Positions 2,419 through 12,953 of a stretch of 20,569 nt of DNA are shown here, piece after piece. Position numbers and translations under genes: made by a program. Each line of letters starts with the position of its first letter. Position 1 is the first letter of the stretch. The stretch lies in assembly GCA_946625715.1 (NCBI GenBank), contig CAMOTK010000007.1:1-20569 (forward strand), written 5' to 3'. This stretch comes from an uncultured Prevotella sp. (GTDB lineage Bacteria; Bacteroidota; Bacteroidia; Bacteroidales; Bacteroidaceae). The notes under the pieces were generated by a model. That model had not been told where the DNA came from. It saw only the letters and a list, made by a program, of their open reading frames with translations, and did not search any database.

Positions 2419-5307
2419 ATGAAAACAACCATCAAACGAAGCTGTTTCACCTTGCTGCTGGCAGCCTGCACCCTTGGGCTGCAAGCCGCAGAGGACAACG
2501 ACACCATCAAGCATGAGAATTTCGGGCAAAAGCTCTTGAAACCTGTAAAATGGATTATCCACAACTGGAGCGACTTCGACAAGAACTACGCCGTGCCATC
2601 ATTCTACAACTGGGCAGTACAGTTGCAGAATTCCACCACTTTTGAATGGCTGCGTATGTCGACACCCGAAGGCATGACCATACACATGAACTCGCGATTG
2701 AGCAACCGATTCGGCCCTTATCTCGGATGGCGATTCCTGTTCTTCGGTACGACTATCGACCTGAATGCACTATCGAACTCTACGAAGCGCAAGAATGAGT
2801 TCACGCTGTCTATCAACTCGAACCTCGTGAACATCGACCTCATCAGGCGCAGGACGGGCGGCGACTTCAATATTAACAAGCTGTTGTTCAATTCGCCTTA
2901 CTTTGGAGAATTAGATTTGACTGAATTAAGCCGGATCTACGATTTGGGTGACTACATCAACAACAGTCTGACGGGTGTGAACATCAACTACTTCACCAAC
3001 CACAAGAAATACTCCAACCCTGCTGCTTTCTCCAATGGCGCCATTCAGCTGCGCTCCGTCGGTTCGCCCATTGTCGGCTTGGGCTTCACCCACCAGAAGG
3101 TAGAAAGCTATATCACCGACTTGTTTACTTCCCTTTCGAGCGTAATGATTGTTGACGAAAATAGCAATAGAATCGTCGACGATGATGATTTGCAAAGACT
3201 AAACGACCTTTGGGAACAGTCGGAATCGGATTACTACAAGGCATTGGGTGTCTACTTGGACAATCTCTGGCCCTATCTGAAAATCAACGACGAATATTCC
3301 AAGCTCACACGCACATTCCTGACCAACCGCATTCCTACCGTCACAAAGGTCAACGACCTGCACCTGCAGTTGGGCTACACCTACAACCTGGTGTTCTCGC
3401 GCCGTCTGCTGCTCGGCATGTCGGCTGTTATCTCGCCCAGTTTGAAGTTTATCTCGGCCACCAACAAAGGCGGACTGTCCTACGAGATGGCCGACCAGCT
3501 CTCTGCACTCATCGAGAAGTACGAGGGTCGCCAAGTGCCTGCCAGCGAGTTCCGCTTTGAGAAAAAGCAAACGCACTTAGACGCCAACTTCTTTGCACGT
3601 GCCAGTCTGACCTATAACTTCAACCGCTGGCGTGCAGGCATCAATGCCTCGTTCAGCAATTACCTCTTCAAAGACAACAAGAGGGGCATGTCTATCAACA
3701 ACGGCTATGGCAACGTCGACGTGTACGTTGGCTACTGCTTCGGACGCAAGAAAGACTACCGCTACAACGGTCCTCTGCGCAAGGAATATATCGCCGCAGC
3801 ACTCACACCACAACAGATTGAGGAGATGAAGGACACGATGCCCAAGGGCAATCTGAACGACGGCAGTTCGTATCTGGCAGCGATGGGCAAGACAGGTCGC
3901 TATCATCAAGACCACTTCGACTTGGGCATCTACGGCTGTGACCTTGTGAAGGGGCCCGACGGCAATTACGGCAGCTATGAGATTCAGGACGGCTACATCA
4001 CGCCTGGCGAAGATACAGAAGGCAAACTGAGAGTTGGCACCGTGCTGCCCATCAACAAGAACGGCCGCTTCTCGCTGCAGGCCGGCCACCACAGCGGCAT
4101 ACGTGCCGGTATGTGGTGGAAGTCTCAGTTAGGCATCAACCAGATTCCCAACCAATGGTACCCAGAGATGCTGCACTATGCCCTACGCGGCAAACTGACA
4201 CTCTATCTGCGTGGTCGCATCTTTGGTACGAAGAAACCCGTGAAGGTCGAGATTGAAGACTTCTGCATCAATCACGGCAAGGAGACCCAGAACTTCTTCC
4301 AGATGGGTATCAAGTCGTTCTACTCGCGTTCTACCTATAGCATCGAGGGCAGAATGAAGGTCAACGACCGTCTCTGCCGCGTCTACATCGAACAGAAGAA
4401 GCGCGGCAAGGAGACCATGCTCTTCTTCTCGCGCGTCTACGAGTCGAACTCCACCTGGATGTCGTTGCTCGACGGCAACCGCACCATCGGTTCCATCTCC
4501 TTGCCTGGCACCCACGATGCCGGAACGGCCTCGCTGCCCGAATCGCCCACATTCAAGTTCGGCCACACGCAGAACTTTGCCGTCATCGACCAGTTGCGCG
4601 ACGGCATCCGCGCCTTCGACATCCGTCTGAAGAAGGATTTGCGCTATGGCCACACGATGACCTGCCGCGAGAGTTTCGACAGCACGATGGTCGACTTCGA
4701 CAAGTTCCTGAAGGACCACCCATCCGAAGTCATCATTGCCATGATTGGCAGCGACGAAGCCGGCCACAAATGGGATCCCGAGCTGACGAAAAACTACAAG
4801 AAACTCATCAACAAGTACCCACACCTGTTTGTAGAGGACTTCAAGCCCAGCGACAAGCTCGACGATGTGCGCGGCAAGATTCTCGTCATCCGTCGTCAGG
4901 AAGAGTGCCCCTTCGGCAAGCTGCTGAAGTTCACCGACAACGCCGTGTTCGACTACGACTGCTTCCATGTGGAAGACGTCTACAAGGAGTTCAAGACGTG
5001 GAAGAAAATCAAGCTCGTGGAGCAGAACATCCGCGAAGCCTACGAGAACGAGGACCCCAACAAGTGGTACATCACGTTCAACAGCATCTCGTGGTCGCCC
5101 CGTCGCCATAACCCCTACAGCTATGCCTGGGGCGGCAAGGCCAAGAACATTCGCAAGCCCATCAACAAGAACTTCCGCGAGTTTGTAGAATTGAAAGACT
5201 ACACCGACTTCGGCATCGTGTTCATGGACTTCTACAACGACCACGGCGACAACCCGCAGATTGTGGAAACCATCATCAAGTCAAACTTCCATCGTCAGGA
5301 CGAATAA
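2419..5307 (+). CDS. DUF4421 domain fused to PI-specific phospholipase C-like domain, exported
   Basis: This 962-residue protein starts with a signal peptide (about 1-23, ending GLQA). LAAC at 14-17 could alternatively be a lipobox. Residues about 50-445 resemble DUF4421, a Bacteroidetes envelope family (YAVPSFYNW, GPYLGWRFLFFG, RRRTGGDF). Residues about 446-685 are aromatic- and beta-rich and unassigned. Residues about 686-962 resemble bacterial PI-PLC X domains: SLPGTHDAGT supplies H699 and D700, GIRAFDIR supplies D734 and R736, RYGHTM supplies H745, and VFMDFYNDHG supplies D937. These match the order and spacing of the catalytic set of Bacillus PI-PLC (H32, D33, D67, R69, H82, D274, from memory). 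The enzyme class cleaves phosphoinositides or related glycolipids without calcium. Stand-alone bacterial PI-PLC is about 300 residues, so the fusion to an envelope domain is unusual. The natural substrate is not evident. Confidence 0.8.
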   Translation: MKTTIKRSCFTLLLAACTLGLQAAEDNDTIKHENFGQKLLKPVKWIIHNWSDFDKNYAVPSFYNWAVQLQNSTTFEWLRMSTPEGMTIHMNSRLSNRFGPYLGWRFLFFGTTIDLNALSNSTKRKNEFTLSINSNLVNIDLIRRRTGGDFNINKLLFNSPYFGELDLTELSRIYDLGDYINNSLTGVNINYFTNHKKYSNPAAFSNGAIQLRSVGSPIVGLGFTHQKVESYITDLFTSLSSVMIVDENSNRIVDDDDLQRLNDLWEQSESDYYKALGVYLDNLWPYLKINDEYSKLTRTFLTNRIPTVTKVNDLHLQLGYTYNLVFSRRLLLGMSAVISPSLKFISATNKGGLSYEMADQLSALIEKYEGRQVPASEFRFEKKQTHLDANFFARASLTYNFNRWRAGINASFSNYLFKDNKRGMSINNGYGNVDVYVGYCFGRKKDYRYNGPLRKEYIAAALTPQQIEEMKDTMPKGNLNDGSSYLAAMGKTGRYHQDHFDLGIYGCDLVKGPDGNYGSYEIQDGYITPGEDTEGKLRVGTVLPINKNGRFSLQAGHHSGIRAGMWWKSQLGINQIPNQWYPEMLHYALRGKLTLYLRGRIFGTKKPVKVEIEDFCINHGKETQNFFQMGIKSFYSRSTYSIEGRMKVNDRLCRVYIEQKKRGKETMLFFSRVYESNSTWMSLLDGNRTIGSISLPGTHDAGTASLPESPTFKFGHTQNFAVIDQLRDGIRAFDIRLKKDLRYGHTMTCRESFDSTMVDFDKFLKDHPSEVIIAMIGSDEAGHKWDPELTKNYKKLINKYPHLFVEDFKPSDKLDDVRGKILVIRRQEECPFGKLLKFTDNAVFDYDCFHVEDVYKEFKTWKKIKLVEQNIREAYENEDPNKWYITFNSISWSPRRHNPYSYAWGGKAKNIRKPINKNFREFVELKDYTDFGIVFMDFYNDHGDNPQIVETIIKSNFHRQDE

Positions 5308-5325: not shown

Positions 5326-6279
5326 TTACAGCTTGACAGCCGAGATGTCTACGAGGCCATTGACAATGGCGTAGATGGTAAGGCCGGCAGGCGAGTGTAT
5401 TTGCAGTTTGCGTGCAATGTTTCTGCGATGCGTGATGACCGTATTTGTGGAAATGCAGAGGTGGTCGGCAATCTCCTTGTTCGACATGCCCTGCACCACC
5501 GATATGATGACATCCTTCTCGCGCTCGCTCAGCGCATCGGCATCGGCCCCCTTGAAGACCATGCCCGTGATGTTGCGTGTGACGTCGCTCTGCTTCGATA
5601 TTTGCTCCAGGCGCCGAATGGCCGGCACGAAAATATTGTCTTCCACCATCGCATGGCGGCGCAGCCATTCCTCGTTGTCGTAGATGTCGTGCAGCGTGGC
5701 CGTCAGGCGGTTGTTGTGCAGACCGTCGCTGGGCAGATACTTAATAATAAGTAGTTTCAGCTCGCGCAGCTTCTTGTCGGCGGCGCCGTGATGGCGCGAG
5801 AACGTCTCGATGCTATACTCCGCAGTGGGCTTGCCGTCGAGCAGCAACTGCACGTAGGGGAAGAGCGTCTTCTGCTCGTACTTCATGTGGCGCCTGATTT
5901 CCTGCGCATACTCGTCGTAGATGCGCAGGATGAGCTGCGACATGGGGTCGCCGGGGAAAATACTCTCTTCCAGCTGTCGGCGAATGAACGGCAACTGGAA
6001 ATCCAGGAAATAGGCGTGGCTGGCTTCCAGATAGTGCATCAGCGTGGGCACGCTCAGCAGTTCATCGTTCTCTGCATCACTATAGCCGTTGATAGTGAAA
6101 TTCACCACAGCAAGGAACGTGTAGGTGTCTACATCGTTGTCCTCACATGTTTCTCTGACTGTCTTGTCGCCAAAGCCCAAGCTAATGCCAAAACTGCCTA
6201 ACGACTGCAACAAATCGTAGTTGTCACGGATGAGCGAAATCATCTTGTCGTCGGCTTCATACATCTTCTGATTCTTCAT
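5326..6279 (-). CDS. RIC/hemerythrin sensor fused to LuxR DNA-binding domain
   Basis: This 317-residue regulator has three parts. Residues about 10-60 resemble the ScdA/RIC N-terminal domain (DUF542), but the usual Cys pair is replaced by GISLGFG. Residues about 78-225 form a hemerythrin-like four-helix bundle with H82 or H88, H131xxxE135, H163/H164 and H209xxxE213. The order and spacing match the di-iron ligands of E. coli YtfE (from memory H84, H129/E133, H160, H204/E208). Residues 248-317 are a LuxR helix-turn-helix (LSEREKDVIISVVQG, NKEIADHLCI, VITHRRNIARKL). Such a protein would sense O2, NO or iron state through the di-iron centre and change transcription. It faces the 3' end of the phospholipase gene (18-base gap) and is divergent from the porin-imelysin-cytochrome operon, which it probably controls. 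No effector-kinase partner is nearby. Confidence 0.87.
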   Translation of the reverse strand: MKNQKMYEADDKMISLIRDNYDLLQSLGSFGISLGFGDKTVRETCEDNDVDTYTFLAVVNFTINGYSDAENDELLSVPTLMHYLEASHAYFLDFQLPFIRRQLEESIFPGDPMSQLILRIYDEYAQEIRRHMKYEQKTLFPYVQLLLDGKPTAEYSIETFSRHHGAADKKLRELKLLIIKYLPSDGLHNNRLTATLHDIYDNEEWLRRHAMVEDNIFVPAIRRLEQISKQSDVTRNITGMVFKGADADALSEREKDVIISVVQGMSNKEIADHLCISTNTVITHRRNIARKLQIHSPAGLTIYAIVNGLVDISAVKL

Positions 6280-6309
6280 CGTGCGTACCTTATTTATTAA
6301 TTACGGCTG

Positions 6310-6340
6310 CAAAAGTACGTATTTTTTTCCAATTTCACAA
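6310..6340 (-). promoter_or_regulatory. Predicted promoter of the hemerythrin-LuxR gene
   Basis: On the minus strand TACTTTTG (complement of 6310-6317) matches the Bacteroidetes -7 consensus TAnnTTTG. TTG (complement of 6338-6340) lies exactly 20 bases upstream, as expected for the -33 element. It lies about 30 bases upstream of the predicted ATG at 6279. Confidence 0.65.
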
Positions 6341-6358
6341 TCACTAAAAGTAGGTATT
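6311..6358. promoter_or_regulatory. Candidate operator: two 13-bp near-identical direct repeats between divergent promoters
   Basis: AAAAGTACGTATT (6311-6323) and AAAAGTAGGTATT (6346-6358) match at 12 of 13 positions, with starts 35 bases apart. The first overlaps the -7 element of the minus-strand regulator promoter. The second overlaps the -33 element of the plus-strand operon promoter. The first copy also extends into an imperfect palindrome around TACGTA (6316-6321). The placement suits a factor that controls both directions, with the hemerythrin-LuxR protein as the obvious candidate. This is inference from position and repetition only. Confidence 0.45.
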
Positions 6359-6387
6359 GCACGTTCTATGCAAACTCCGTACCTTTG
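6357..6387 (+). promoter_or_regulatory. Predicted promoter of the porin-imelysin-cytochrome operon
   Basis: TACCTTTG (6380-6387) is a perfect Bacteroidetes -7 element (TAnnTTTG). TTG at 6357-6359 lies 20 bases upstream as the -33 element. Transcription would start a few bases after 6387, giving a leader of about 25-30 bases before the ATG at 6422. Confidence 0.7.
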
Positions 6388-6421
6388 CACCTGATTTTAG
6401 AAACGCTCACAAAAACAAGAC

Positions 6422-7747
6422 ATGAACAGTAGAAAAATAAAAGCAATGTGTGCTCTCATGCTGACGCTGACAGCAAGCACGACAATGGCGCACACGAACG
6501 CCACCGACAGCGTAGCCGCCACTGAAGCTACGCCCACCAACAAAAGCCGCTTCAGCTTGGGAGCCTACGGCGAGGCCGTGTTCAGCCGCAATTTCTACAG
6601 CCAACACTTCAACAGATACAAATATCCCGAACAACACAAGGACGACCCTGCGCACGGCCGTTTCGACTTGCCCCACGTCACCGTCAACATGGGCTATGAC
6701 TTCGGTCACGGCTGGTCGATGGGCATGGAGATTGAGTTTGAGCACGGCGGTACGGAAAGTGCCGTAGAGGTAGATGCCGACGAGTCGGGCGAATACGAGG
6801 CCGAGGTAGAACGCGGTGGCGAGGTGGCCCTCGAACAGTTCTGGATACAGAAATCGTTCTCGCGTGCCCTGAATCTGCGCGCCGGCGAGATTGTGGTGCC
6901 CGTAGGTGCCACAAACTACGCTCACATGCCTACGGAGTTCTTCACGGTCTATAGGCCTGAAGGCGAAAACAGCATCCTGCCCTGCACGTGGCATCAGACG
7001 GGTATTTCGCTTTGGGGCCGACTGAAGGACTGGCGCTACGAAGTGCAGTTTCTGTCGGGCCTCGACTCCGAGCGCTTCGGCGCCGAGAGCTTTGTACACT
7101 ACGGCGCCACCAGCGTCTACGAGTTCAAGCTGGCCAATAGCTTTGCCGCTGCCGCACGCATCGACAACTACAGCATACCCGGCCTGCGCCTAAGTCTGAG
7201 CGGATACTACGGCCACACGTTCAACAACACCATGAAGAGCCACAACAGCGCCACTTACGACAAGTGCAAGGGCGCGCTGGCCATCGGGTCGTTCGACTTC
7301 CTGCTCAAACGTTGGAACTGGGTGGTGCGCGGCAACTTCGACTATGCCCACCTGGGCGATGCCTCGCTCATCACGACGTTCAACAACTCCTTCCCCAAGC
7401 ACACGCTGCAGGACGGCTCGCCCTCGAAGCGCCAGCCCGTGGGCAGCGATGCCATAGCCGCAGGCATCGAGGCCGGCTACAACATTCTGTCGCAGTTCAG
7501 CGGCATACGTCCCAACCAGAAGCTCTACGTCTTCGGTCGCTATGAATACTACAACCCGATGAACGCCGGTGCCTACAAGCTGACCTACCTGTGGTGCAAG
7601 AAGCACCGCTTCGCTGCTGGTCTGAACTACTACCCCACGAAGCAGATTGTGGTAAAGGCCGAGTATTCGCACCGCCATTTCGCCAACCCCTACAACGACG
7701 AGCCCGCCCTGAACCTGGGCATCGCCTTCTCTGGCTGGCTTCTGTAG
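6422..7747 (+). CDS. Outer-membrane porin-like beta-barrel protein
   Basis: This 441-residue protein starts with a signal peptide (about 1-23, ending TMA) and continues with alternating aromatic and polar strands typical of an outer-membrane barrel. Features such as YGEAVFSRN near the start, LNLRAGEIVVPVG, GISLWGRL and a final strand ending GIAFSGWLL resemble the OprO/P-like porin family. A His- and Asp-rich stretch (H62, H72, H78, H85) and a strongly acidic segment (about 112-134) occur early and could face the pore or the outside. It is the first gene after the predicted promoter, followed 35 bases later by an imelysin lipoprotein. It probably passes a small solute used by the downstream proteins. 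A metal ligand is an attractive guess but not shown. Confidence 0.75.
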   Translation: MNSRKIKAMCALMLTLTASTTMAHTNATDSVAATEATPTNKSRFSLGAYGEAVFSRNFYSQHFNRYKYPEQHKDDPAHGRFDLPHVTVNMGYDFGHGWSMGMEIEFEHGGTESAVEVDADESGEYEAEVERGGEVALEQFWIQKSFSRALNLRAGEIVVPVGATNYAHMPTEFFTVYRPEGENSILPCTWHQTGISLWGRLKDWRYEVQFLSGLDSERFGAESFVHYGATSVYEFKLANSFAAAARIDNYSIPGLRLSLSGYYGHTFNNTMKSHNSATYDKCKGALAIGSFDFLLKRWNWVVRGNFDYAHLGDASLITTFNNSFPKHTLQDGSPSKRQPVGSDAIAAGIEAGYNILSQFSGIRPNQKLYVFGRYEYYNPMNAGAYKLTYLWCKKHRFAAGLNYYPTKQIVVKAEYSHRHFANPYNDEPALNLGIAFSGWLL

Positions 7748-7782
7748 AAAAAAAACACTATTCAATATAAAAAAAAGGTTTT

Positions 7783-8928
7783 ATGAAGCAAATGAAAACA
7801 ATCACAAACATGGCTGTTGCAATAGCACTTATGGCAACAGTATTCACTTCGTGCAGCAAAGACGAAGAAACAACCGCTACGGGCCAGAACGAAGAACTGG
7901 CACAGGTGAACAAATCGTATGTAGAGAACACCGTCTACGCCACCTACACCCGTCTGGCCGACGAGGCTGAAAAGCTGTCGACCATGTCGGAAGACTTCGA
8001 GAGCCAGGACGCACTCGTTGCGCTCTGCGACCAGTGGAAGACGACGCGTAAGTTCTGGGAGTTCAGCGAGGCCTTCCTCTTCGGAGCCGCATCAGGCTAC
8101 GGCATCGACCCGCACATCGACACCTGGCCGTTCGACGTAGCAGCCTTCAACAACCTCTTCTCCAAGTACCACCCTGCCACCAGCGAGGCCGACGCCAAGA
8201 TTATCGACGAGCAGGTGGCCACAACGCAGAACTTCACCGGTTTCCACGCTATGGAGTACATCATCTTCCGCGACGGTGCTCCTCGTCAGCTCGCCGACAT
8301 CACTGCCGACGAACGCTACTTCGTGAAGGCCGTGGCTGCCGACCTCTATCTCTCGGCCTGCCGTCTGGAAGCCGCTTGGAAAGGCACCGCTAACGTGAAG
8401 GCTGCCCGCCAGCAGCTGCTCGAAGAGACCGACATGACGCCTGCCGACTTCTTCGGCGAGGAGTTCATCAATGCCGGCAAGGCCGGTTCGCGCTATAAGA
8501 CCATCACCGATGCCGCTCTGCAAATCATCGGCGGTTGCCAGGACATCATCGGCGAGGTGGCCGAAGGCAAGATTGGGTCGGCCTATCACGGCGACGACAC
8601 CAACTACATCGAGTCGCCCCATGCCTACAACTCTATTCAGGACTTCTACGACAACGTCTTAGGCTGCAAGCATGCCCTCTACGGCGGTCTGACCGTCGAA
8701 GGCACAACACCCGACGCCAAGTCGCTCATCGCCTACAGCCAGAAGCACTATCCCGCCGAGACGGCCGTCGTCGTCAACGCCTTAGAGACGGCCCTCACTA
8801 AGGTGAACGCCATGAAGCGTCCGTTCGTCAAGAACTACACCGACGCTTCTTGCGGTGAAGCCATCGATGCCCTCGACGCCCTCGACGAGGCACTGAGCGA
8901 CCTGGGACTGAAGTTCATGGGCCAGTAA
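7783..8928 (+). CDS. Imelysin-family (M75-type) lipoprotein
   Basis: This 381-residue protein has a lipoprotein signal ending FTSC, with C24 as the lipidated residue. C24 is followed by SKDEE, which resembles the Bacteroidetes signal that sends lipoproteins to the cell surface. The mature part matches imelysins: FWEFSEAFLFGAASGYGIDPHIDTWP is cut here to its hallmarks (FLFG, DPHIDTWP), and the family GxHxxE motif is G153-F-H155-A-M-E158, followed by YIIF. Imelysins were first called insulin-cleaving peptidases, but members such as EfeO-M75 proteins are linked to iron uptake, and the GxHxxE site is thought to bind metal. It lies between the porin-like gene and a di-heme cytochrome lipoprotein (26-base gap), an association known for iron-regulated imelysin loci in other bacteria. 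Confidence 0.9.
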   Translation: MKQMKTITNMAVAIALMATVFTSCSKDEETTATGQNEELAQVNKSYVENTVYATYTRLADEAEKLSTMSEDFESQDALVALCDQWKTTRKFWEFSEAFLFGAASGYGIDPHIDTWPFDVAAFNNLFSKYHPATSEADAKIIDEQVATTQNFTGFHAMEYIIFRDGAPRQLADITADERYFVKAVAADLYLSACRLEAAWKGTANVKAARQQLLEETDMTPADFFGEEFINAGKAGSRYKTITDAALQIIGGCQDIIGEVAEGKIGSAYHGDDTNYIESPHAYNSIQDFYDNVLGCKHALYGGLTVEGTTPDAKSLIAYSQKHYPAETAVVVNALETALTKVNAMKRPFVKNYTDASCGEAIDALDALDEALSDLGLKFMGQ

Positions 8929-8954
8929 ACATCCATTTAAAACACTAAACAAAC

Positions 8955-10580
8955 ATGAAACGAACGCGATTCATCTTCGGCTGCCTGCTGACGGCATGCG
9001 CCGCACTCCCTCTCACCAGCTGTTCCGACGACAAGGAGACAGCCATCGACGAAGAGAAAACCACCGACTACGACCCCGACGAGTTCTACGCCGGCGGCAA
9101 GCTCGGCACGGCCTTCAACGCTACGAAGTCGGCCTTCGAGCAGCCATCGGGCGCTGTTGAAGCCCAGGGGCTGAGCCACGCGTTTCAGATGGGCGAATAC
9201 GCCTTCGAGCGCGACTACAACCAGAATCAGAGCGGCGCCTTCCACGGCCTTGGCCCTGTGATGGTGCGCGTGGGTTGTCTCTATTGTCACCCGTCCTACG
9301 GCTACGGCAAGCGCACAGAGCAGTATCGCGCCAAGGAGATGGGCAACGGCTATCTGCTCGTGGTCTACGACAAGAAGACCGATGCCTACATCCGCTCGGT
9401 GGCCGGCATGCCTCAGACGCTGGCTGTTGCACCGTTCAAGGCACCTATCGACGAGACGAAAATCAAGATAGACTGGCTGGAATATACCGACGAGTGGGGC
9501 AACAAGTTCCCCGACGGCGAGCCTTATTCGCTCATCTATCCTGAAGTGACCATCCCGGCCGATGCCTACTATGCACCCATCATCGTGCAACGCGACGGCA
9601 AGGACGTCGAGGTGGGTGTCGACGAGATTGGCGTGAAGCTCGAAGCCACCATCGGCATCTACGGCACGGGCCTGCTCGACGCTATTCCCGAGGAAGACAT
9701 CATTGAGCAGTGGAAGAAAGAGGCATCCTTCGGCGCACAGCTCAACCCGGCTTTCTTCAAGGACGGCGAGTATGTGGGCTGGTACTCCAACGCCCTGACG
9801 GGCACGAAGTATGTGCGTCGTTTCACCTACGCTCTGAGCCGTGGCCCCGTGCTCGATGCAGCCGGCGCCAACGCTATATGGAACATCACCAACGTGACGC
9901 GCTCCGACCGCCGCTACCACTATCTCGACCTGGCCGGCAAGTACTATGCCGAGACCTCGTCGAAGGACCCCGACGTGCAGCGCGACTTCTACACCTACTT
10001 CCCCGAGTGGAACAAGACGGGCAACGTGGAGAAGGACATCTACAACTACCTCACCAGCCGCGAACTGCCGGTTGAGATGAACGACGAAGAGTACAAGAAC
10101 TTCATGGTATGGCACCGCGGACTGGCCGTTCCCGCCGCCCGCGACGTAGACACGAAGACCTTCCAGCTGGGCAAGAAGAAGTTCACGGAGATTGGCTGTG
10201 CACAGTGTCACCGCCCGTCGTGGACTACCGGTCCCGACCACATCAAGGACCCCAACGGCATGTTCAAGAACGACACCGACATGCCTCAGTATCCCAACCA
10301 GAAGATATGGCCCTACACCGATATGGTGCAGCACCGTCTGTTCATGAAGAACGACATACGCACGGGCTGGTGTCGCACCACCCCACTCTGGGGCCGCGGC
10401 CTGTCGCTCATCGTGGCCAACCACCAGGACCGTCTGCACGACCGTCGTGCGCGCAACGTCATCGAGGCCATCATGTGGCACGGCTCTGCCCAGAGCGATG
10501 CCCGTCGCAGTGTCGAGAACTTCCGCAAGCTGAGCAAGGAAGAGCGCGACGCGGTGGTCAAGTTCATCAACTCCATCTAA
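8955..10580 (+). CDS. Di-heme c-type cytochrome lipoprotein (DHOR/DUF1111-like)
   Basis: This 541-residue protein has a lipobox LTSC (C23) followed by SDDKE, a likely surface-export signal. Two heme c attachment motifs are visible: CLYCH (C108, C111, H112) and CAQCH (C415, C418, H419). The wide separation and the overall size fit the di-heme oxidoreductase family (DHOR, DUF1111, sometimes called thiol oxidoreductase), which is related to di-heme peroxidases and often found beside imelysins. The true redox substrate of the family is unsettled. Heme attachment requires a cytochrome c synthase, and one is encoded only 4 bases downstream. The protein would act outside the inner membrane, perhaps on the cell surface together with the imelysin, for example by changing the redox state of iron or by consuming peroxide. 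That role is inference. Confidence 0.87.
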   Translation: MKRTRFIFGCLLTACAALPLTSCSDDKETAIDEEKTTDYDPDEFYAGGKLGTAFNATKSAFEQPSGAVEAQGLSHAFQMGEYAFERDYNQNQSGAFHGLGPVMVRVGCLYCHPSYGYGKRTEQYRAKEMGNGYLLVVYDKKTDAYIRSVAGMPQTLAVAPFKAPIDETKIKIDWLEYTDEWGNKFPDGEPYSLIYPEVTIPADAYYAPIIVQRDGKDVEVGVDEIGVKLEATIGIYGTGLLDAIPEEDIIEQWKKEASFGAQLNPAFFKDGEYVGWYSNALTGTKYVRRFTYALSRGPVLDAAGANAIWNITNVTRSDRRYHYLDLAGKYYAETSSKDPDVQRDFYTYFPEWNKTGNVEKDIYNYLTSRELPVEMNDEEYKNFMVWHRGLAVPAARDVDTKTFQLGKKKFTEIGCAQCHRPSWTTGPDHIKDPNGMFKNDTDMPQYPNQKIWPYTDMVQHRLFMKNDIRTGWCRTTPLWGRGLSLIVANHQDRLHDRRARNVIEAIMWHGSAQSDARRSVENFRKLSKEERDAVVKFINSI

Positions 10581-10584
10581 GGAC

Positions 10585-12798
10585 ATGAAGCTAAGACATA
10601 TTCCCTTTATCATTCTTGCCGTCATCATCCTAACCTTGATGACGGCAACTTTTGTTGAAAAGAGCACCGACACCGACACCGTCATGCGGCTCTTCTACGG
10701 CTCTTGGTGGTTCATAGCCCTCTGGGCTTCGCTGGTTGTCAGCGGCGGCATGCTGCTCGTCAGCGAGAAAGTGTGGCGCAAGCCTGCCACGATGCTCCTC
10801 TACTGTGCCTTCGTGCTCATCCTTGTGGGGGCACTCGTCACCCACCTGTGGGGCATGCAGGGCGTTACCCACCTGCGCATGGGCGAGAAGCAGACGACCT
10901 TTGTCGACACCGAGACCGACCGCCAGACCAACTTCCCCTTTGAAGTCAGTCTGAAAGCCTTCGAGGTGAAGAACTATCCCGGCACGTCGTCGCCCATGGA
11001 CTATCACAGTACCATCGAGATTGCCGACGGCGACCGCCGGCAGGAGCTCCACGTGGCCATGAACGCCATCGGCGAGTATCGGGGCTACCGGTTCTATCAG
11101 GCCGGCTACGACAACGACGAGCAGGGAGCCACACTCGCCATCAGCCACGACCCATGGGGCATCGGCATCACCTACACCGGCTACGGACTGCTCTTCCTGA
11201 GCATGCTGCTGCTCATGGTGCTGCCACGCGAAGGCTTCCGCCTGATGCTCTCGCGCAAGGCTGCCACCATCCTCGCCCTCATGCTGGCCCTGCCTGCGCT
11301 CCGCGCTGCCACGCCCCACACGCTGGCCGAGGCCGAAGCCCGACAGCTGGGCGACCTCTACATCTACTACAACGGGCGCATCTGTCCGCTGCAGACGATG
11401 GCCAAGGACCTCACCACCAAGCTCTGCGGCCATCAGAGCTTCAAGGGCTACACGGCCGAGCAGGTGCTCTCGGGATGGATGCTCTTCCCCACCGACTGGA
11501 TAGAGGAGCCCATCATCAAGGTGAAGGGAGCCGTGGCCCGCCACTTGGGCATCGAAGGCAAATATGCATCCTACAGCGAGTTTCATCGCGACAACGGCTA
11601 CCTGCTCGACGACGTGCTCTACGAGATTCATTCTGGCGCACACGTCGACAACGCACGCGACTTTCTGGAAGCCGACGAGAAGATGAACATCATACGCATG
11701 GTGCTCAACGGCGAACTGCTGAAGCTCTTCCCCTGTCGCACAAGCGACGGCATCACCTGGTACACGCCGGCCGACCCGCTGCCGGCCGACATGGAGAAAG
11801 GCAAGTGGATGTTCACCAAACGCTCGCTCGACTATCTGAGCGAACTGGCCTGGACCAACCAGCAGCAGGCGGCCGCCGACGTGATAGGGAAAATAAAGAC
11901 CTACCAGACGAAGGAAGCCGCAGGCATGCTGCCCGGCGAAAAGCTGTTCAAGGCCGAGAAGCTATACAACAGTCTTGAACAGACGCGCACCGCCGCCATG
12001 ATTCTGCTCACCATCGGCTTGCTGGCCTGTGTGGCCTACACGCGTGCATGGATTAGCCGGCGGCGCGTAAACCGCTTTGTGGGCATCGCGGCCAACACGG
12101 TCGTAGCCCTCGCGCTGGTCTACCTGCTGTCGGTCATGTGTCTGCGCGGCTACGTCAGCGGCCATCTGCCCTTCTCCAACGGTTTCGAGACCATGCAGTT
12201 CATGTCGCTGGCCTCGCTGCTCATCACCCTGGTGCTGCAACGCCGCTTCATGCTGGCCATGCCCTTCGGCCTGTTGCTGGCAGGCATGACGCTGCTGGTG
12301 GCCATGATGGGCGGCAGCAATCCGCAGCTCACGCCCCTCATGCCCGTACTTGCATCGCCGCTGCTGTCGCTCCACGTGTGCATCATCATGCTGGGCTACG
12401 CCCTGTTGGTCTTCATCATGCTCAATGGTCTCACGGCCATCATCTTGAACCTCTCCAACCGCCGCAAGCACAAGGCGCAGAGCGAGCAGCAGATTGGTCA
12501 GCTGACGCGCATCTCGCAACTGCTACTCTACCCCGCCGCCTTCTGTCTGGCCGCCGGCATCTTCATTGGTGCCATCTGGGCCAACCAGTCGTGGGGACGC
12601 TACTGGGGCTGGGACCCCAAAGAGGTGTGGGCCCTCATCACGCTGCTGGTCTACGCCGTCGGGTTCCACGCCAAGCATCTCGCTTGGCTACGTCGTCCGA
12701 TGGGCTTCCATGTGTACATGGTGCTGGCCTTCCTCACCATCCTCATGACCTACTTCGGCGTCAACTTTTTCCTCGGAGGCATGCACGCGTATGCGTAA
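10585..12798 (+). CDS. ccsBA: Fused system II cytochrome c synthase CcsBA (ResB-CcsA)
   Basis: This 737-residue membrane protein joins a ResB/CcsB-like N-half (membrane helices near 5-25, 40-60, 68-90 and 193-213, with a periplasmic domain) to a CcsA C-half with multiple helices (from about 470). The heme-handling WWD segment is WGRYWGWDPKEVW (W670 on). Four candidate heme histidines are present: H87, H597, H695 and H734. The gaps of 98 and 39 between the last three match those of Helicobacter CcsBA (97 and 39, from memory), so the synthase looks complete. It exports heme and joins it to CxxCH cysteines outside the inner membrane. The ATG lies 4 bases after the di-heme cytochrome stop (GGAC between them), so the two are tightly coupled, and the neighbouring cytochrome is the obvious client. 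Confidence 0.92.
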   Translation: MKLRHIPFIILAVIILTLMTATFVEKSTDTDTVMRLFYGSWWFIALWASLVVSGGMLLVSEKVWRKPATMLLYCAFVLILVGALVTHLWGMQGVTHLRMGEKQTTFVDTETDRQTNFPFEVSLKAFEVKNYPGTSSPMDYHSTIEIADGDRRQELHVAMNAIGEYRGYRFYQAGYDNDEQGATLAISHDPWGIGITYTGYGLLFLSMLLLMVLPREGFRLMLSRKAATILALMLALPALRAATPHTLAEAEARQLGDLYIYYNGRICPLQTMAKDLTTKLCGHQSFKGYTAEQVLSGWMLFPTDWIEEPIIKVKGAVARHLGIEGKYASYSEFHRDNGYLLDDVLYEIHSGAHVDNARDFLEADEKMNIIRMVLNGELLKLFPCRTSDGITWYTPADPLPADMEKGKWMFTKRSLDYLSELAWTNQQQAAADVIGKIKTYQTKEAAGMLPGEKLFKAEKLYNSLEQTRTAAMILLTIGLLACVAYTRAWISRRRVNRFVGIAANTVVALALVYLLSVMCLRGYVSGHLPFSNGFETMQFMSLASLLITLVLQRRFMLAMPFGLLLAGMTLLVAMMGGSNPQLTPLMPVLASPLLSLHVCIIMLGYALLVFIMLNGLTAIILNLSNRRKHKAQSEQQIGQLTRISQLLLYPAAFCLAAGIFIGAIWANQSWGRYWGWDPKEVWALITLLVYAVGFHAKHLAWLRRPMGFHVYMVLAFLTILMTYFGVNFFLGGMHAYA

Positions 12799-12809
12799 AA
12801 ATGTGTAGC

Positions 12810-12884
12810 GTTTTAACAGTGTTAATACAGCGTTTTAACATAGGCAATTCGCTGTTTTAACAATGTTAATACAGCGTTTTAACA
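12810..12884. repeat. Four GTTTTAACA boxes spaced exactly 22 bp, with two TTAACA-N-TGTTAA palindromes
   Basis: GTTTTAACA occurs at 12810, 12832, 12854 and 12876, each start 22 bases after the previous one. Boxes 1 and 3 continue into perfect palindromes TTAACA-G-TGTTAA (12813-12825) and TTAACA-A-TGTTAA (12857-12869), and both are followed by TACAGC before the next box. The array therefore also reads as two copies of a 44-base unit. It begins 11 bases after the ccsBA stop, between convergent genes. A period of two helical turns suggests a protein-binding array, but none is known to me with this sequence. Confidence 0.8.
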
Positions 12885-12953
12885 TTTGCTCTCCAAATTG
12901 CATCATCCGCGCGGCCTTTCTGATGCTGCAATACGTCGATAATAAGATAAAAA

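Follow-up and report, generated by a model that had tools for sequence, protein, structure and literature searches.

We analyzed a 20,569-nucleotide stretch of DNA from an uncultured Prevotella sp., hereafter the window, which is contig C7 (CAMOTK010000007.1) of a 65% complete, 1.87-Mb assembly in 244 contigs (GCA_946625715.1). Between positions 5,326 and 12,798, it carries an operon for an outer membrane barrel, an imelysin lipoprotein, a di-heme cytochrome lipoprotein of the DHOR family, and the heme attachment protein CcsBA, divergent from a gene for a fused hemerythrin-LuxR regulator. The locus is a variant of a published iron module with a testable iron switch. We put at roughly two in three the probability that it is an iron starvation module switched by an activator of the fused hemerythrin-CdhR type at a dyad of two inverted heptamers spaced by 2 bp (7-2-7). 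Because the low-iron induction of its apparent Bacteroides thetaiotaomicron counterpart and the regulator type are both in print, an iron starvation module is the most likely identity of the operon.

The counterpart, BT2473-BT2482, is matched to the window operon by gene order and product names; its genes rise 62.7- to 323.7-fold upon iron depletion and are also up in colitis (PMC10434189). Both loci encode CcsA, a porin, a thiol oxidoreductase (taken as DHOR), a peptidase M75 (imelysin), and a helix-turn-helix regulator, while BT2473-BT2482 is longer by its product list and resembles a distant clade of our loci (L075 to L080) with a Porin_O_P protein, a small lipoprotein, and a RidA-like gene. 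The regulator also has published relatives. A hemerythrin and CdhR-type pair (PG1236-1237 and BT0519-0520), in which hemerythrin precedes or is fused to a LuxR-type regulator, is up 16- to 20-fold at low iron and is fused in Prevotella intermedia; we connect the window regulator to PG1237 and BT0520 through the legend of Fig. 3E in that paper (PMC10434189). CdhR activates hmuYR (PMC10434189, PMC10101095, PMC9666725). What sets the window apart from these pairs is that its fused regulator is divergent from an imelysin-DHOR operon.

All five open reading frames (ORFs) lie where a first-pass annotation, made from the letters alone, had placed them, with the stated gaps of 35, 26, and 4 bases within the operon, and Pfam agrees with the domain assignments other than the barrel; the observation is confirmed, and the function in iron acquisition that was proposed from it is likely. 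The imelysin (7783 to 8928, plus strand, 381 amino acids [aa]) scores 133.9 bits against PF09375 (cutoff, 23.5) and contains the GxHxxE motif as GFHAME at residues 153 to 158 (8239 to 8256), with G153, H155, and E158 invariant in 24 sequences. The cytochrome (8955 to 10580, plus strand, 541 aa) scores 110.1 bits against the DHOR/DUF1111 model PF06537 (cutoff, 22) and has two CxxCH heme sites, CLYCH at residues 108 to 112 (9276 to 9290) and CAQCH at residues 415 to 419 (10197 to 10211), whose Cys and His positions are invariant in 48 sequences. CcsBA (10585 to 12798, plus strand, 737 aa) joins both parts of the heme attachment system in one protein (Cytochrom_C_asm, 111.8 bits with a cutoff of 29.9; ResB, 54 bits with a cutoff of 24.6) and stays below the NCBIfam CcsB cutoff (139.7 versus 187.6). 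The first gene encodes the porin-like barrel (6422 to 7747, plus strand, 441 aa), which is under every Pfam cutoff (best, OMP_b-brl, 19.7 versus 28.7) and, having no PF07396 match, does not qualify as a phosphate-selective porin O/P.

The first-pass annotation had proposed checking conservation of the five-gene set across Bacteroidales; within this order, the barrel-imelysin-DHOR-CcsBA operon is found widely. A cytochrome match occurs in 103 of 151 genomes of the family, the source genome included. Scanning species genomes with a cytochrome profile yielded at least 590 loci, of which 80 named loci were kept (L numbers denote loci and G numbers genomes): DHOR is present in 80, imelysin in 79, the barrel in 76, and CcsBA in 73, a clustering that exceeds chance. 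All imelysin and barrel misses fall at contig ends, as do three of the seven CcsBA misses (L103, L124, and L157; not L100, L112, L117, and L122). The loci come from records named Prevotella, Bacteroides, Tannerella, Porphyromonas uenonis, Muribaculaceae, Salinivirgaceae, Paludibacteraceae, and Cryptobacteroides. In the distant clade L075 to L080, a Porin_O_P protein, a small protein, and a Ribonuc_L-PSP protein are inserted before CcsBA (Pfam was run on L076 and L077 only). The second porin of these long operons matches PF07396, and the small protein, which we call a lipoprotein, has a sub-threshold cytochrome match at best. In several loci, CcsBA has a Ribonuc_L-PSP (RidA-like) neighbor some 380 aa long (L031:11485-12636 and L077:4456-5598), and in the P. 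uenonis loci L155 and L160, two DHOR genes stand in tandem between imelysin and CcsBA. In the DHOR tree, the window pairs with L083 (support, 1.0) in a clade (0.919) that excludes L061, L066, L069, and L081, the loci with which it groups in the regulator tree (0.998); this conflict indicates that regulator and operon have partly different histories. A simple exchange as the source of operon divergence within the genus was considered and dropped, as the closer relative L083 has the same operon type, and the matter is left as a tree disagreement.

The regulator (6279 to 5326, minus strand, 317 aa) combines a hemerythrin domain (PF01814, 54.5 bits; cutoff, 25.3; E = 2.2e-14) with a LuxR/GerE helix-turn-helix (62.9 bits; cutoff, 23.5; E = 2.1e-17) at residues 249 to 304 (5368 to 5535, minus strand), and it is therefore a fused member of the hemerythrin-CdhR type. 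Its sensor part (5590 to 6279, minus strand) is ScdA-like throughout: residues 1 to 230 align with ScdA end to end (E = 3e-7) and with YtfE over part of their length (E = 0.008). Aligned to ScdA, six candidate di-iron ligands (H88, H131xxxE135, H164, and H209xxxE213) are invariant in 14 sensor parts, while H164 stands at 90% or more, not invariant, among 22 full regulator sequences. These four His and two Glu residues correspond to what we take to be the di-iron ligands of YtfE and ScdA. No Cys lies opposite the ScdA Cys-Cys site in the regulator alignment (nearby, C45 is invariant), and the sensor reaches 49.9 bits against the curated RIC model TIGR03652, whose cutoff is 204.7; for these two reasons, we call it RIC-like rather than RIC. 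Of the RIC/hemerythrin sensor named in the first-pass annotation, the hemerythrin domain thus stands, and the RIC assignment does not. With ScdA and YtfE the sensor shares domain length and ligands; it differs in its fusion to a DNA-binding domain, its missing Cys-Cys site, and its distance from the RIC cutoff. A hemerythrin domain reads iron status in mammalian FBXL5, a ubiquitin ligase subunit and not a transcription factor, which offers a parallel in idea only, with no claim of homology.

A shared motif, GTATTG-N20-TAnnTTTG, is common upstream of the operon. With spacings of 18 to 22 allowed, this core motif precedes 34 of 40 operons that have a fused regulator nearby (26 of 31 when it is divergent, 8 of 9 in other placements), 3 of 7 that have a split regulator, and 33 of 78 that have none nearby (70/125 overall), compared with 7 of 1,023 other ORFs of the same loci. 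These counts cover barrel genes whose start codon has over 150 bases in front of it and exclude duplicate loci (L110, L139, L145, and L150 repeat DNA of other loci; before their removal the figures were 35/41 fused, 71/129 overall, and 7/1,044 other ORFs); the near-identical sets L064/L065, L046/L047, and L070/L071/L073 remain. The spacing between the -33 and -7 boxes is 20 in all operon promoters save L055 and L084. A table of 68 distinct sites resolves the upstream part into the dyad TACCNAT-TT-TTRGGTA, whose right half extends into the -33 box. Operators of NarL/LuxR regulators have this layout, two inverted heptamers with 2 bp between them, and the dyad is accordingly predicted to be bound by the LuxR-type protein. 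If transcription begins some 5 bases downstream of the -7 box, as in Bacteroidetes, the dyad center would fall near -43, a class II activator position.

In the window, a single predicted operator (TCACTAA-AA-GTAGGTA, 6341 to 6356) lies between two divergent -33 boxes, and in both promoters 20 bp separate the -33 box from the -7 box. The operon promoter (6357 to 6387, plus strand) has its -33 TTG at 6357 to 6359 and its -7 box, TACCTTTG, at 6380 to 6387; the regulator promoter (6310 to 6340, minus strand) has its -33 TTG at 6340 to 6338 and TACTTTTG as its -7 box. Among the 26 divergent regions with a core site, the -33 boxes of the window are the closest, with a gap of 16 (the next is 32). By our reading, the window operator departs from the strict pattern at two positions, those that usually read TT.

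Which protein owns the dyad was addressed by scanning 97 genomes (57 + 40) with the strict pattern at up to one mismatch. Sites were found in 60 of 73 genomes with a fused or split regulator, in 1 of 15 without a regulator match, and in 2 of 9 with a distant hemerythrin only, and the reversed control pattern gave 0 sites in all 97 ("split" here means a hemerythrin-only match of about 230 residues, with the LuxR neighbor seen for part of them). The association is strong overall (Fisher P = 4e-8) and inside five genera (12/15 versus 1/12; P = 3e-4); these statistics ignore the kinship of genomes, so the within-genus contrast, in which G037, G011, and G031 carry the regulator but lack a site, is the fairer one. 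The dyad is kept in 13 of 15 tested genomes that have the regulator and no cytochrome match (our tally), indicating that its presence tracks the regulator rather than the operon. In eight genomes (G053, G054, G072, G101, G133, G151, G152, and G158), the regulator gene has a dyad upstream that is directed at it, so self-control is likely.

A different explanation is that the dyad belongs to another regulator, either Fur or a LuxR protein such as that encoded at 1802 to 2398 in the window, and that the hemerythrin protein merely accompanies it. The helix-turn-helix of the 1802-2398 protein is of the same class, and the regulator-less genome G104 has a site with a FeoA-like gene behind it, judged by eye. 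Neither candidate fits the genomes that lack the hemerythrin regulator: a Fur family protein is present in 15 of 15 of them, which makes Fur an unlikely owner, and the 1802-2398 type in 5, all of them free of sites, which makes that protein unlikely as well. The dyads directed at the hemerythrin regulator's own gene also speak against another owner, as does the 7-2-7 layout, which is that of NarL/LuxR proteins. We therefore regard another owner as unlikely. As separate observations, the G104 site (G104:C42:12758-12804, locus L236) matches the strict pattern with zero mismatches and the gene behind it starts like FeoA (by eye); the 1802-2398 protein (198 aa) has no Pfam match outside its GerE-type end, and in L069 and L314 a homolog of it is a neighbor of the hemerythrin regulator.

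Linkage of the hemerythrin-LuxR regulator to the operon, which the first-pass annotation had assumed, holds for part of the family. In 44 of 100 genomes (39 fused, 5 split), no more than 12 kb separates the regulator from the cytochrome, against a rough chance expectation of about 1; the remaining 56 have no regulator that close. The 100 are the 103 cytochrome genomes minus G024, G104, and G133, in which the match is a fragment of 37 residues or fewer. Among the 80 named loci, 20 have a fused regulator nearby and 6 a split hemerythrin and LuxR pair. Since a regulator match (E ≤ 1e-25) is found in 136 of 151 genomes, the protein probably controls more than the imelysin-DHOR operon. Twenty neighborhoods of regulators away from the operon were picked by hand, representing 19 of 46 genomes in which the fused regulator is distant from the cytochrome or the cytochrome is absent, plus a second copy in G072 (three of those picked, G033, G043, and G108, were already known to carry a dyad site somewhere). 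In 3 of the 20, FeoAB is near the regulator with a dyad just upstream, divergent in L322 (G100; FeoAB identified by BLAST only) and L328 (G129) and with one gene between in L324 (G146). A further locus met through its dyad match, L301 (G045), has the regulator, the dyad, an outer membrane-like gene, and a FeoAB-like gene, judged by eye.

A wider predicted regulon is consistent with iron control. The core pattern gave 77 sites in 12 same-genus genomes and 0 in the reversed control. Because that control ignores promoters as such, GTA was counted against all TTG boxes instead: TTG-N20-TAnnTTTG precedes 82 of 1,177 other ORFs, and GTA stands in front in only 6 of those. Behind 72 of the 77 sites (75 entries with overlaps) lie the barrel operon (8), TonB receptor-like genes (8), flavodoxin-like genes (5), and the regulator (3); the others are mixed or unnamed. 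The four core sites in the source genome precede the operon, a TonB receptor (Pfam), and a protein whose NMT1 match is sub-threshold, and one is unlike the dyad. In 40 inspected regions from 14 genomes, mostly sites distant from the operon, the next gene looked like one for a TonB receptor in about 13 cases, for flavodoxin in four, for pyruvate formate-lyase (PFL), enolase, and TetR in three each, and for FeoAB in one; the remaining genes were of other or unclear kinds. Pfam supports the assignment for one of each kind and for two TonB receptors. These classes overlap the genes reported up at low iron in at least one species studied, namely, flavodoxin, TonB loci, TetR-ABC loci, FeoB, and pflAB (PMC10434189). 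A dyad common to the operon, FeoAB, TonB receptors, and flavodoxin, together with the low-iron induction of the B. thetaiotaomicron counterpart, upholds the iron acquisition role first proposed. An enolase-like gene stands right behind the dyad in L272, L294, and L298, from three genomes of two genera (Pfam on L272 only); the word enolase has 0 occurrences in PMC10434189.

The same target set bears on one option of the first-pass annotation that found little support, namely, peroxide or nitric oxide (NO) defense at the surface. In such a unit, DHOR would destroy H2O2 and the di-iron regulator would sense O2 or NO as the main trigger. One weak dyad site does lie before a rubrerythrin-like gene. 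Inspection by eye picked out no gene for NO detoxification behind the dyad; the set is iron sparing, and its predicted members include PFL, an O2-sensitive enzyme. MauG, moreover, shares the DHOR fold, yet is no peroxidase in its main job. With low iron as the published trigger (PMC10434189), we consider a defense function quite unlikely.

The operon proteins themselves point to work at the cell surface, as the first-pass annotation had held. Two or more acidic residues lie among the five that follow the lipid Cys in all 54 imelysins and in 54 of the 58 cytochromes (C24-SKDEE and C23-SDDKE in the window), and CS(D/E)2 and K-(D/E)2 act as surface export signals (PMC6222051, PMC5080379); the BT_2479 signal peptide serves to export cargo (PMC13192842). 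The barrel, modeled with 46 relatives (47 sequences; mean predicted local distance difference test score [pLDDT], 82.2), is predicted to be a porin of 16 strands by our count of the listed strands. Foldseek returned PorB and chitoporin as top matches and OprP at rank 16, and a Protein Data Bank (PDB) sequence search with the barrel profile gave no match. Residues 103 to 138 (6728 to 6835, plus strand), with invariant E103, E105, E107, E116, E121, E124, E126, E130, and E138, contain a mean of 14.0 acidic and 2.3 basic residues across 53 sequences. From strand order, this stretch would occupy the second outer loop and strand ends, where it would suit cation capture. As an observation apart, the imelysin at L027:8753-9955 (G044) has its usual N-terminal helix (YVDNVVLATYRTLANNA) at the C terminus, a circular permutation unlike the published Bacteroidales one, seemingly seen in L074, L076, L077, and L080 (all by eye).

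A porin and a surface cytochrome in one operon could also form a conduit that passes electrons across the outer membrane to external ferric iron, for respiration and not uptake, and the Porin_O_P protein and small lipoprotein, with its sub-threshold cytochrome match, that the distant clade adds would fit such a role. The operon, however, offers two hemes only and no multiheme protein, its counterpart is induced when iron is scarce, and its dyad is common to iron uptake genes, leaving a respiratory conduit very doubtful.

The cytochrome has the di-heme peroxidase/MauG fold, and a second look (VIA) was clear, so redox work on iron and modification of the imelysin are both possible. Its remaining structural matches were sparse: a PDB search with the single sequence gave none, a search with the profile gave one (the CxxCH stretch of a cytochrome c555 construct), and Foldseek gave weak matches only (best E, 8e-4; TM, 0.22/0.35). 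Were DHOR to modify other proteins, as do MauG and the copper-linked, MauG-like protein 6e1c, it might oxidize an imelysin residue, such as the invariant W115, to build an iron site. But 6e1c ranks among peroxidases with tied Z scores, a hydrazine synthase subunit heads the list, and modification of the imelysin is a prediction; we think this role quite improbable.

The first-pass annotation had further suggested that the operon makes its own heme-loading machine, and a tie between the two is supported. In a CcsBA search of 20 genomes, six without the cytochrome (G009, G027, G033, G043, G108, and G135) gave no match or a short, weak CcsA-like one; the same-genus genomes G033 and G108 are the two with no CcsBA match. 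In the single-contig genomes G005 and G150, the operon CcsBA is the sole one found. On the other side, some operons have no CcsBA. The operon may carry CcsBA because nrf, with its ccsAB, falls 30- to 36-fold at low iron in B. thetaiotaomicron (PMC10434189).

Taken as an iron starvation module, the locus would work as follows. When iron is available, the RIC-type di-iron site would be filled and the regulator off. When iron is short, the site would empty, and the regulator would bind the dyad overlapping the -33 box, switching on its own gene, the operon, the uptake of iron by ferrous and TonB-linked routes, and enzymes that spare iron. At the cell surface, the imelysin and the di-heme cytochrome would bind iron and change its redox state, the porin with its acidic loop would let Fe2+ into the periplasm for FeoAB, and CcsBA would supply heme attachment while the Nrf-linked set is shut off. 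More tentatively, at somewhat less than even confidence, we propose that the hemerythrin-LuxR protein is a direct iron sensor and the main iron starvation activator across Bacteroidaceae and relatives, replacing Fur at these promoters and using one dyad for uptake (TonB, FeoAB, and the surface operon) and for iron-sparing metabolism (flavodoxin and pyruvate formate-lyase).

Several findings weigh against this picture. Regulator binding, iron loading, and expression, like the iron chemistry of imelysin and DHOR, are predictions from sequence, and the acidic loop was modeled at low confidence (pLDDT below 50 at 110 to 114 and 116 to 132). At up to one mismatch, the strict pattern has 0 sites in the source genome, and the window operator fits it less well. 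More broadly, 55 of 125 operon promoters have not even the core motif, many of them in loci labeled only Bacteroidales or from other families and some in Prevotella, so the dyad switch is not universal, and the 56 of 100 cytochrome genomes with no regulator within 12 kb owe this partly to short contigs. Many sites stand in front of genes whose products have no obvious tie to iron (enolase, TetR, PEMT, and unnamed proteins). G104 has a dyad site and no regulator was found there, and several regulator-less genomes are only 75 to 84% complete. Nor is CcsBA always kept: L100, L112, L117, and L122 continue past the cytochrome without it, and in G075 (L066) it is a remnant of about 220 aa, with a short CcsA-like protein on another contig.

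Beyond Bacteroidales, the closest comparison is with Pseudomonas aeruginosa PA4370-PA4373 and with EfeUOB, iron-regulated operons that likewise pair imelysin with a di-heme or other peroxidase (PMC3143127). The outer membrane type has no EfeU permease (PMC3143127), and no EfeU (Ftr1-type) permease was found among the four genes of the window operon, which excludes it from EfeUOB. Those systems are Fur regulated, whereas the window operon has a LuxR-type dyad, CcsBA, an acidic porin, and surface export signals. The first-pass annotation had taken the combination with a hemerythrin-LuxR switch to be undescribed. In part it is not, as the operon's low-iron induction and the fused hemerythrin regulator are already in print (PMC10434189). 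The operator and regulon are, however, absent from the main text of that paper, in which "motif," "promoter," and "regulon" occur 0 times, and no report joining a hemerythrin-LuxR regulator to an imelysin-DHOR operon was found among the matches listed in the open-license literature. As far as the literature was searched, the operator, the regulator-operon tie, the regulon, and the di-iron ligand evidence are new.

Two features flank the locus. Convergent with the regulator, positions 2419 to 5307 encode a 962-aa protein with DUF4421 (8e-54) and a sub-threshold PI-PLC-X match near its C terminus (0.0094). Right after CcsBA and before a convergent gene, positions 12805 to 12890 contain repeated units around GCGTTTTAACA / GTTAATACAGCGTTTTAACA, judged by eye.

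Bacteroidales are a leading group of gut anaerobes, and the operator, a sensor with likely metal ligands, and a predicted target list make their iron sensing testable. Knowledge of iron gene regulation in this order has been called scarce and the CdhR mechanism unclear (PMC10434189, 2023). The operon suggests a reason for iron-starved cells to invest heme in a cytochrome and to keep a second heme attachment machine, and, given the rise of BT2473-BT2482 in the colitis data cited by PMC10434189, it bears on how commensals cope with iron withholding by the host.

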